Shown here one piece after another: positions 2 through 15,087 of a stretch of 23,414 bases of DNA; positions within the stretch are counted from its first letter, which is position 1, and each line of letters begins with the position of its first letter. The translations under genes were made by a program, and so were the position numbers. The DNA is from a virus. The notes beneath the pieces are model-generated. The model was not told the DNA's origin and made no database searches. It saw only the letters and a program-made list of their open reading frames with translations. The stretch covers positions 1 to 23,414 of IMG/VR virus record IMGVR_UViG_3300021961_000647. The stretch is one strand, 5' to 3'.

Positions 2-181
2 CTTCATAGACTCTCGCATTCCCTATCACAACTCCAAAGCCTCCGCAACCATGCCCCCTTAATAGTTGACCCCGGGGGAGGGTTATGCAGCACCGATGTA
101 TGCCGTACCCGCCTAGATACAAAAAAAGCTAAAAAGTCAATCCTAAATGAGAATTATTCCTATATAGACTATAACACCTAA
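2..181 (+). CDS. Possible 3' end of an upstream gene (partial, weak)
   Basis: The reading frame starting at base 2 stays open for 59 codons to a TAA at 179-181. It reads through a stretch with DPGGGLCSTDVCRTRLDT and ends in ENYSYIDYNT. No start codon lies inside the window, so it could only be the tail of a gene beginning further left. I recognise no family. An open frame of this length is not rare by chance, and a 15-codon ATG frame (MQHRCMPY...) with a GGAGGG just upstream overlaps it in another frame. Treat this as a hint that the left edge may still be coding. Confidence 0.2.
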   Translation, partial: LHRLSHSLSQLQSLRNHAPLIVDPGGGLCSTDVCRTRLDTKKAKKSILNENYSYIDYNT

Positions 182-344
182 CCCATTGAAATATAACCCA
201 AAACATCTTTCAAAGAATTAACCAGAAACGGAACTGGAGGCAGTCGAGGTCAGCAGTCAATATAGCCGATCGCGACTGAACAGTAATGAAGCCCTCTAGC
301 CCCCTCTAGCGACCCCTAAAAATAAATGTTAAAAAAGTGAAAAA
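182..344. other. Non-coding leader upstream of P1
   Basis: No credible gene on either strand. The stretch is AT-rich and contains stop codons in all frames. A short inverted repeat (CAGTCG at 241-246 and CGACTG at 273-278) and the CCCTCTAGC repeats near 292-317 are the only structures seen. Its place just before the small terminase gene makes it a candidate for packaging or genome-end signals, but nothing in the bases proves this. Confidence 0.5.
292..317 (+). repeat. CCCTCTAGC repeats, copies 1 and 2
   Basis: CCCTCTAGC occurs at 292-300 and again at 302-310. The second copy extends to the 16-mer CCCTCTAGCGACCCCT (302-317), which recurs exactly at 534-549 inside the first codons of the small terminase gene. 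The reverse motif CTAGAGG is at 421-427. The copies flank promoter P1 and its leader on both sides, so they could be protein-binding sites or the trace of a duplication. Confidence 0.7.
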
Positions 345-349
345 AACAC

Positions 350-378
350 TTGACAAAATTGAAAAAGTATGCTATAAT
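350..378 (+). promoter_or_regulatory. Promoter P1, sigma70 type with extended -10
   Basis: A perfect TTGACA at 350-355 and a perfect TATAAT at 373-378 are separated by 17 bases. TGC directly before the -10 box gives an extended -10. Transcription should start near 385 and run into the small terminase gene. The 21 bases AACACTTGACAAAATTG-AAAA (345-365) are identical to those of P3 at 15047-15067. A palindromic CTATATAG (384-391) lies across the expected start point, where a repressor could block the promoter. Confidence 0.88.
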
Positions 379-383
379 ACGCA

Positions 384-512
384 CTATATAGGGTATGACG
401 TTAAGGGGGTTTAAAATTCCCTAGAGGTTCATAATTTATATAGTTATATAGAAATGCTAGAGTAAATAGCTATATACCCTATATAGATAAATACTCTAGT
501 GTTTCTATATAG
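384..512. promoter_or_regulatory. Cluster of CTATATAG palindromes (operator-like)
   Basis: The self-complementary octamer CTATATAG is found at 384-391, 479-486 and 505-512, with one more at 160-167. Near copies TTATATAG lie at 436-443 and 444-451. The first copy spans the expected start of transcription of P1 and the last two lie within the hairpin arms and loop before the small terminase gene. The sequence shows the repeated palindrome directly. A role as binding site for a phage or host regulator is inference. The alternative is that they are only parts of the RNA hairpin. Confidence 0.45.
444..512 (+). promoter_or_regulatory. Long leader-RNA hairpin upstream of the small terminase gene
   Basis: Bases 445-464 pair with 492-511 as a continuous 20-bp stem in RNA. 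Eighteen are Watson-Crick pairs. The other two (U455-G501 and G456-U500) are adjacent G-U pairs, and U444-G512 can add one more. The loop holds a second hairpin, CUAUAUA (470-476) with UAUAUAG (480-486) around CCC. The stem ends one base before the AAGGA ribosome binding site (514-518). There is no U-tract after it, so it is not a simple terminator. An RNase processing site or a translation control element would fit. Confidence 0.7.
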
Positions 513-525
513 TAAGGAACCAGTT

Positions 526-4057: not shown

Positions 4058-6025
4058 ATGGACGATTACGATAAATTTACAGACCAAAAGGTCGAGTCGT
4101 GGGTTATGGACAAGGTGGAGCAATGGCGCGACCACTACAGTGCAAACTACGAAGAAAAGTTTGACGAGTACTACCGTCTATGGCGTGGTATTTGGTCAGC
4201 GGAGGACAAGACTCGTGAAAGTGAGCGTTCTCGACTGATTTCTCCTGCCCTCCAACAAGCCGTTGAGAGTTCAGTGGCTGAGGTTGAGGAAGCTACCTTC
4301 GGTCGTGGTAAGTGGTTTGACATTCGTGACGACCGCAAAGACCAAGACAAGCAGGACATCGCCTTCTTGCGCGAACAACTGACTGAAGACTTCCAATTCA
4401 CCAAGACACGTAAGGCTGTTGCTGAGTGTATCTTGAATGCTTCTGTGTTTGGTACTGGTATTGGCGAACTTGTCCTTGAAGAGATCAAGGAAATGAAGCC
4501 TGCTACTCAGCCAATCATGGATGGAGCGATGCAAGCGGTTGGTGTTAACATCGAAGACCGTGTGGTTGTCAAGCTACGACCTATCCTGCCTCAGAACTTT
4601 CTAATTGACCCTGTTGCTTCCTCTATCGAAGAAGCGCTAGGCGTTGCAATTGACGAGTTTGTTCCTAAACACCAAGTTGAAATGGGGATTGAAAGTGGTA
4701 TCTATCGTGATGTTGATATTGAGTCTGCCTCTACTGACACAGACATTGAAGCTGACAAAGAGCTATCAACGTTTGATGAGGATAAAGTCCGACTAACCAA
4801 ATACTACGGTCTAGTTCCTCGTCACCTCTACGTCGATGCAATGATGGAGACTGAAGAGGACGAGCTTGCTGAAGAGATTGGCTCAGAAGAAGACAAGAGT
4901 GACGAAGAAGGGTACGTCGAAGTCATCATGGTTATTGCCAATGGCGAAACCCTGTTGAAAATCGAAGAAAACCCCTACATGATGCAAGACCGTCCAGTAG
5001 TCGCGTTCCCTTGGGATGTGGTTCCGGGTCGCTTCTGGGGTCGTGGTATCTGCGAGAAGGGTTATAACAGCCAGAAAGCGCTAGATGCTGAGCTACGTGC
5101 TCGTATTGATGCTCTAGCACTCACCGTACACCCCATGATGGCTATGGATGCTTCTCGTATGCCTAGGGGAGCAAAACTAGAGGTACGTCCGGGTAAGACA
5201 ATCCTTACCAATGGCAACCCTTCTGAAATTTTACAACCGTTTAAGTTCGGCAACTTAGACCAAGTTACCTTTGCTCAAGCTGGTGAACTACAAAAGATGG
5301 TTCAGATGGCGACAGGTGCTATTGACGCTGCTGGTATCCCCGGCTCAATCAATGGCGAGGCTGCTGCTGGTGCTGTAAGTATGTCAATGGGAGCAATCAT
5401 CAAACGCCACAAGCGTACATTGATTAACTTCCAAGAGAGTTTTCTCATTCCTATGATTGAGAAGACTGCGTGGCGTTATATGCAGTTTGACCCAGACAAC
5501 TATCCTGTCTCAGATTACAAGTTTGTGCCTTCTTCCTCTTTGGGTGTTATTGCCCGTGAGTATGAGGTAACACAATTGGTTCAGTTGCTACAAACCCTTG
5601 GTCAGAATAGCCCCATGTACCCAATGTTGGTATCTGCGGTTATTGACAACATGGGTCTGGCTAATCGTGAAGAGCTTATGGCTCAGTTGGCTCAGGTTTC
5701 TCAGCCTGACCCCGCAGCACAACAAGCCGCTCAGCAGCAACAACAGTTACAACTTGCCCTTGCTCAGGCGCAGTTGCAATTGGTTCAGGCGCAGACGATG
5801 GAAGCACAGGCTCGTGCTCAGAAGTATTCAATCGAAGCTCAGTTGGAGCCAGAAGTGGTTAAGGCTAAGATGGCAGCAGCTATCTCTACCAACCTACAAG
5901 CTGGAAATGCTGATGATGCAGAGTTTGAGAAGCGTGCAAAGATTGCCGATCTCATGCTGAAGGAAGCAGACATCAAGAGTAACGAGCGCATTGCAGTGAT
6001 GCAGATGCAAAATAGGAAGCAATAA
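4058..6025 (+). CDS. Portal (head-tail connector) protein
   Basis: A 655-residue protein directly after the large terminase, where the portal usually lies. Portals form a ring of 12 at one capsid corner through which DNA is packaged and ejected. The N-terminal helices (about 10-75, many Trp, Tyr and Arg) and the core with VVKLRPILPQNFLIDPVA (near 168) and PYMMQDRPVVAFPWDVVPGRFWGRG fit podovirus portals. GAAAGAVSMSMGAIIKRH near residue 440 is probably the wing/stem helix region. The C-terminus from about 550 is a glutamine- and alanine-rich coiled coil, which could form the barrel reaching into the head. The acidic insert EEDELAEEIGSEEDKSDEE (near 266) is probably surface-exposed. Promoter P2 begins in its stop codon. 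Confidence 0.88.
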   Translation: MDDYDKFTDQKVESWVMDKVEQWRDHYSANYEEKFDEYYRLWRGIWSAEDKTRESERSRLISPALQQAVESSVAEVEEATFGRGKWFDIRDDRKDQDKQDIAFLREQLTEDFQFTKTRKAVAECILNASVFGTGIGELVLEEIKEMKPATQPIMDGAMQAVGVNIEDRVVVKLRPILPQNFLIDPVASSIEEALGVAIDEFVPKHQVEMGIESGIYRDVDIESASTDTDIEADKELSTFDEDKVRLTKYYGLVPRHLYVDAMMETEEDELAEEIGSEEDKSDEEGYVEVIMVIANGETLLKIEENPYMMQDRPVVAFPWDVVPGRFWGRGICEKGYNSQKALDAELRARIDALALTVHPMMAMDASRMPRGAKLEVRPGKTILTNGNPSEILQPFKFGNLDQVTFAQAGELQKMVQMATGAIDAAGIPGSINGEAAAGAVSMSMGAIIKRHKRTLINFQESFLIPMIEKTAWRYMQFDPDNYPVSDYKFVPSSSLGVIAREYEVTQLVQLLQTLGQNSPMYPMLVSAVIDNMGLANREELMAQLAQVSQPDPAAQQAAQQQQQLQLALAQAQLQLVQAQTMEAQARAQKYSIEAQLEPEVVKAKMAAAISTNLQAGNADDAEFEKRAKIADLMLKEADIKSNERIAVMQMQNRKQ

Positions 6026-6064
6026 CACTTGACAAAATTGTAAAAGTGTGGTATAATAGCAACA
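6021..6064 (+). promoter_or_regulatory. Promoter P2, copy of the duplicated 44-bp promoter element
   Basis: TTGACA (6029-6034) and TATAAT (6052-6057) are both perfect, 17 bases apart, with TGG giving an extended -10. The 44 bases 6021-6064 match P3 (15044-15087) at 41 positions. The match includes the last two bases and the TAA stop of the preceding gene, here the portal. Expected transcription starts near 6064 and covers the two small genes, scaffold and capsid, up to the terminator at 8352. Confidence 0.9.
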
Positions 6065-8351: not shown

Positions 8352-8382
8352 GGGAGGCTCTCTTCGGAGGGCTTCCCCTTTT
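8352..8382 (+). terminator. Rho-independent terminator after the capsid gene
   Basis: GGGAGGCTCTC (8352-8362) pairs with GAGGGCTTCCC (8367-8377) as an 11-bp stem with two G-U pairs, closed by a UUCG tetraloop in its most stable setting (C-UUCG-G). CTTTTG follows at once. It lies nine bases after the capsid stop. Reading into the fibre genes must come from read-through or an unseen promoter. Confidence 0.9.
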
Positions 8383-14701: not shown

Positions 14702-15048
14702 TGAAACACTCTATCGGTAAATCACTAGCAGCAGGGACAGCGCAGGAAATCCTCACTGTTCCTAATGGTTACCACGCTGTTGTCACTATGGTTTATGTAA
14801 CCAATACCTCTGGCAGTACTGGTTCCTACAACATGAGCTGGAGACACGCTCATAACAACTATGCTGATGTTATTCGTTTTGCTTATGGTAAGTCATTAGG
14901 TAGCGGTTCCTCTGACCAGTTTGCTAATGGCGAATTGGTTATGAAGGCAGGGGATAAGATGACACTTACAAATACAGTGGCTGTGGATGTTATTGTTACA
15001 TTCGACCTCATTCAAGCAATGCCATTATATGCTTTTGCTGGTGAATAA
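14701..15048 (+). CDS. Small beta-rich probable virion protein
   Basis: A 115-residue protein starting on the preceding stop (TAATG). The sequence alternates like a beta sandwich: AQEILTVPNGYHAVVTMVYVTNTSGSTGSYNMSW is a two- or three-strand segment (about 14-47), and GELVMKAGDKMTLTNTVAVDVIVTFDLI another. IGKSLAAGTAQEILTVPNGYHA recalls a class of small proteins near tail genes of environmental phages that look like capsid- or tail-decorating proteins. No function can be named. Its last codons and stop are part of the duplicated promoter element P3. Confidence 0.68.
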   Translation: MKHSIGKSLAAGTAQEILTVPNGYHAVVTMVYVTNTSGSTGSYNMSWRHAHNNYADVIRFAYGKSLGSGSSDQFANGELVMKAGDKMTLTNTVAVDVIVTFDLIQAMPLYAFAGE

Positions 15049-15087
15049 CACTTGACAAAATTGAAAATATGTGGTATAATAGCAACA
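15044..15087 (+). promoter_or_regulatory. Promoter P3, second copy of the 44-bp promoter element
   Basis: TTGACA (15052-15057) and TATAAT (15075-15080) are perfect and 17 bases apart with an extended -10 (TGG). 41 of 44 bases equal P2 at 6021-6064, including AA plus the TAA stop of the gene before. Expected transcription starts near 15087, only about 14 bases before the ATG of the tail tube gene, leaving room for little more than the AAGGA ribosome binding site (15088-15092). Confidence 0.9.

Follow-up and report, generated by a model that had tools for sequence, protein, structure and literature searches.

The hairpin at positions 444–512 does not stand on its own but forms the second half of a two-hairpin leader, which lies between a consensus sigma70 promoter and a candidate small terminase gene, terS, in a virus record of 23,414 bases (hereafter the window, meaning the whole stretch analyzed). 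Our preferred reading, held tentatively and at somewhat less than an even chance, is that this hairpin, named hairpin II, is the second of two abutting hairpins in a cis-acting, structured 5′ leader of the late mRNA and would serve its stability or processing. The features on which the analysis rests are collected in the table below.

Table. Features at the head of the late operon, with positions in the window (a dot marks features without strand)
Feature	Position	Strand	Basis
Probable left genome end (cosN-like), inferred	1	.	Common contig ends
Box 0, CTATATAG, upstream of the promoter	160–167	.	Exact palindrome
CCCTCTAG copies (292, 302) upstream of the promoter	292–317	+	Repeat search, motif counts
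Sigma70 promoter, TTGACA-17-TATAAT with TG extension (extended −10)	350–378	+	Consensus match 12/12
Hairpin I, 5′ end of the leader, arms CTATATAGGGTATGAC / GTTCATAATTTATATAG	384–443	+	Fold; pairing in 10 relatives
Hairpin II, with inner hairpin 470–486	444–512	+	Minimum-energy fold; pairing in relatives
Shine–Dalgarno sequence AAGGA	514–518	+	Outside the stem; GGAACC kept in most relatives
terS, small terminase candidate, 130 aa	526–918	+	Two N-terminal GRP (AT-hook-like) motifs; homologous family keeps GRP motifs

The window carries tailed-phage late genes: the terS candidate, a large terminase (Terminase_6N) encoded a few genes downstream of it, an SU10-like portal and adaptor, and a P22-type capsid. 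The terS product gave no Pfam match and no PHROG match. From the promoter, a transcript would be predicted to start at about position 385, and transcription of the leader is likely because so strong a promoter lies just upstream. In one relative (L044), the two long upstream ORFs are oppositely oriented, so that the late operon appears to begin here. Near-identical copies of the promoter at 6029 and 15052, both with short leaders, represent two further consensus promoters within this operon (6021–6064 and 15044–15087). A resemblance to a T7-like promoter of a phage-type RNA polymerase (TAATACGCACTATATAGGG) was dismissed, as it is gone in other groups; a search for RNA_pol gave no match in seven relatives, which is no proof since the control genomes gave no match either. 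A strong terminator-like hairpin with a T-rich tail is located at 8352–8377, directly 3′ of the major capsid gene, and terminator-like sites in the operon show no excess overall (15 versus 16.4 in shuffles).

In the minimum-energy fold, the stem of hairpin II joins 444–464 to 492–512 through 21 pairs, of which 18 are Watson–Crick and three are G-U: the tandem U455-G501/G456-U500 and the closing U444-G512. Its loop contains a perfect 7-bp inner hairpin (470–476/480–486). The preliminary description, which had placed the stem at 445–464 with 492–511, was thus right to within a base, and the two adjacent G-U pairs and the perfect 7-bp hairpin in the loop that it reported are present in the fold. 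The predicted energy of −30.1 kcal/mol compares with a mean of −12.9 for shuffled sequences (z −6.4), and none of 200 shuffles was as stable. The same region also folds well as single-stranded DNA despite the mismatches (z −6.7), as does the antisense RNA (−26.6 versus −30.1 kcal/mol; z −5.5), in which a 2x2 gap replaces the tandem G-U pairs. The original statement that the stem is kept in RNA only was therefore too strong, and the hairpin in one sequence alone is no proof of selection as RNA.

The terS start codon (ATG at 526) and AAGGA both lie outside the stems of hairpins I and II, and hairpin II ends one base 5′ of AAGGA, as originally described; in the predicted structure, the Shine–Dalgarno sequence is left unhidden by hairpin II. 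The stem is followed by TAAGGAACC, and an intrinsic attenuator or terminator was rejected because this stretch contains no U-tract; the site is also absent from the listing of the terminator scan.

Hairpin I directly abuts hairpin II, and very little of the leader lies outside the two; the leader measures about 128 nt up to the end of hairpin II and folds as a whole with −51.6 kcal/mol (z −5.7). A search of Rfam returned nothing at the gathering cut-off; the weak matches, far below it, are mostly to generic long-hairpin miRNA models, which any long hairpin gives. Base pairing between GGTTC and the ribosome site GAACC was also considered and dropped, being weakened or lost in three relatives (L005, L038, and L040).

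Relatives were collected by TerS searches of IMG/VR (80 loci each) and, for further ones, by pattern scans. No cultured relative was found in the phage collection, by DNA or by TerS, and genome contigs yielded one weak TerS match, in a Gammaproteobacteria MAG. About 30 distinct IMG/VR leaders share the layout of the window, with exceptions at single elements: the promoter, CTATATAG at the start, RTATGA, GTTCATAG-TATATAG, further boxes, and AGGAACC. On the sequences compared, hairpin I is the more conserved element and hairpin II the more variable half. All cells of hairpin I are paired (100%, 10 relatives), including a compensatory double change from G-C to A-U, with TATGAC/GTTCATA in most relatives and TATAAC/GTTTATA in the near relatives L008 and L020.

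The arms of hairpin II vary between CTAGAG/CTCTAG, CTTGAG/CTCAAG, and CTTATG/CATAAG with pairing kept, and within the window-type group 97% of cells are paired, versus 16–60% when the partner is slid. Covariation in related phages, which the preliminary description had proposed as a check, gave a mostly favorable picture, in that arms change while pairs are kept. The counts are small: four pairs vary on a single side, and there is one double change. They are not clearly above those of the letter shuffles, of which 44 of 500 attain the covariation score and 386 of 500 match the number of double changes; this control is weak because few sequences are aligned. Non-Watson–Crick pairs carry further information, since a DNA palindrome would tolerate G-U and A-C equally. 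Hand alignment of the hairpin II cores of 11 leaders, which we chose ourselves and which leave out a stem-base A-C pair of L019 and L047, showed 10 G-U cells (about eight distinct events) and no A-C; another A-C occurs in L071. When all leaders were searched symmetrically, a cruder approach, G-U outnumbered A-C by 49 to 26 (34 versus 22 distinct contexts). This excess leans toward the sense RNA without settling the matter.

More distant relatives (L070, L083, and L162) have an unrelated leader sequence, yet place a strong hairpin after the promoter. With these three included, 18 of 27 lineage leaders (67%) fold with z < −2 and 13 (48%) with z < −3, compared with 9% and 1.4% of random windows; the nine leaders not below −2 are L031, L037, L038, L039, L063, L065, L132, L145, and L147. 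In L145 (positions 1–266), as in L146, each leader hairpin contains one copy of a duplication of about 29 nt. Taken together, the kept pairing with changing letters points, with moderate support, to a working RNA element.

If so, the consensus promoter at 350–378 would produce a late mRNA for packaging and head genes that begins with terS, and its leader would be a cis-acting RNA. With a paired 5′ end and a long duplex before terS, the leader would most likely shield this mRNA from 5′-end-dependent decay, and/or the duplex would provide a double-strand cleavage site of the RNase III type, cleavage at which would leave terS a defined, open ribosome site.

The interval upstream of terS also contains features that point to DNA. 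The palindrome CTATATAG occurs four times in the 23.4-kb window, always within 160–512 (0.29 expected), and is largely confined to the region before terS in 37-kb relatives as well. Where the sequence reaches far enough upstream of a leader, Box 0 is nearly always present, 193–259 nt before Box 1 and outside the transcript; DNA looping between the two was rejected, as these spacings show no helical phase. In L022 and L031, Box 1 begins 2 nt after the −10 element and overlaps the expected start site, so that hairpin I may have a partly untranscribed 5′ arm there. Four independent contigs (the window, L006, L015, and L047) share a homologous starting base. Where other contigs span base 1, they have a G/C-rich dyad at this place, GGGT-GCTTCATT-GCCCC or GGGGTC-CTTCATA-GACCC. 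Base 1 is probably a cohesive genome end, and 1–525 would then be the stretch from cos to terS; alternatively, assembly may break recurrently at this base. Two side observations concern the same interval: a conserved G-rich run at 72–84, which reads CCGGGGGAGGG here and GGGGCGGGGGAGGGG in many relatives, separates the probable cos end from Box 0, and an inverted repeat, CAGTCG..CGACTG in the window and CTGTCG..CGACAG in relatives, is present upstream of the promoter (243–276).

From the boxes and the probable cos end, one can argue that the dyads are DNA sites, with the boxes binding either TerS in a cosB-like manner or a phage protein that regulates the late promoter; the hairpins would then be mostly by-products of clustered palindromes. 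We regard this as the main rival, less likely than the RNA leader but a serious possibility. The clustering of the boxes, the position of Box 0 outside the transcript, the probable cos end, and the AT-hook-like motifs on TerS all speak for it, though the same GRP motifs occur in relatives without boxes and the spacing of Box 0 and Box 1 is out of helical phase. Moreover, stem parts beyond the boxes pair and co-vary too, and the listed cores contain G-U rather than A-C. The RNA-element reading of the preliminary description is thus upheld in part: pairs are indeed kept while arms change, but it had left the evidence for DNA boxes out of account, and the functions it proposed (processing, ribosome access, or protein binding) are putative. 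The RNA leader and the DNA sites may also be superimposed.

Two further explanations keep the hairpins as RNA and assign them another task. A put-like antiterminator, in which the two stem-loops at the transcript start would bind the elongating host polymerase and cause read-through of late terminators, is suggested by an anatomy like that of HK022 putL (PMC9378689) and by the strong terminator-like site after the capsid gene (8352–8377). This is improbable, given that the sequence of hairpin II is unconserved, whereas put has conserved polymerase contacts, that the leader is about twice as long as put, that terminator-like sites are not in excess, and that two further promoters serve the same operon. 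Still less probable is a translational switch, in which the 5′ arm of hairpin II (GCUAGAG) would alternate between two partners, the 3′ arm of that hairpin and the first terS codons (CUCUAGC); the 3′ segment of hairpin I contains the same 6-mer. In the window, the 5′ arm and the terS codons are perfectly complementary over 7 nt, and the motif changes jointly at the arm, hairpin I, and terS places in relatives; however, it is also found upstream of the promoter, outside the transcript, it is absent from the L032–L044 type, where the leader is kept, and the existing 21-bp stem is far more stable.

The motif itself, CTCTAG, occurs in the window at 294 and 304 upstream of the promoter, at 421 (reverse) in hairpin I, at 457 (reverse) and 494 in the arms of hairpin II, and at 536 in the terS codons. 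The second CCCTCTAG copy is part of a 16-nt repeat, CCCTCTAGCGACCCCT, that is common to the terS codons. Most near relatives have CTCAAG at the corresponding places, with copies missing from some contigs, and L030 has CATAAG in the upstream and hairpin copies and retains CTCAAG in terS. Genome-wide enrichment of CTCTAG/CTCAAG is weak. Gene conversion among the repeats or a shared recognition factor would suffice for such concerted change. That a single phage factor might read the motif both as DNA and as structured RNA, and so tie recognition of the packaging site to control of the packaging-operon mRNA, seems to us a long shot.

The late operons studied here have consensus host promoters, and therefore something besides promoter strength must set late output. 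A conserved double-hairpin leader next to terS and a probable cos end is a concrete candidate for this role. It would constitute a new structured RNA family, hosted by an uncultivated aquatic phage group that has no close cultured relative in the collections searched. A narrow literature search found no earlier description of such a double-hairpin leader.

Several known systems resemble parts of this arrangement. The putL element of HK022 consists of two stem-loops that start at nucleotide 3 of a sigma70 transcript, and put elements are cis-acting RNAs of about 70 nt that serve early genes and have conserved polymerase contacts (PMC9378689). The leader of the window likewise places two adjacent stem-loops near the start of a sigma70 phage transcript, a likeness of anatomy; it differs in its length of about 130 nt, in serving late genes, and in having no conserved hairpin II sequence. 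In the HK022 record, put is without annotation. Lambda-type cos regions have cosN–cosB before the small terminase gene. The window similarly shows a non-coding interval with repeated short sites between the probable cohesive end and terS. A cos region of this kind, that of N15, is the subject of a dedicated paper (PMC4669245). Unlike in the lambda type, the putative sites of the window are 8-bp palindromes scattered across about 350 bp, with a strong promoter in between.

RNase III sites of the T7 type are long, near-perfect RNA duplexes before a phage gene, in which structure is kept over sequence. To our knowledge, the T7 sites have no counterpart of hairpin I, which lies at the very 5′ end of the leader in the window. 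Their duplex length of about 20 bp or more compares with 21 bp in the window, and the contiguous cores are shorter in several relatives. Hairpin II is also a long, near-perfect duplex ahead of a gene whose structure is kept, and it can be considered a candidate site of this type.
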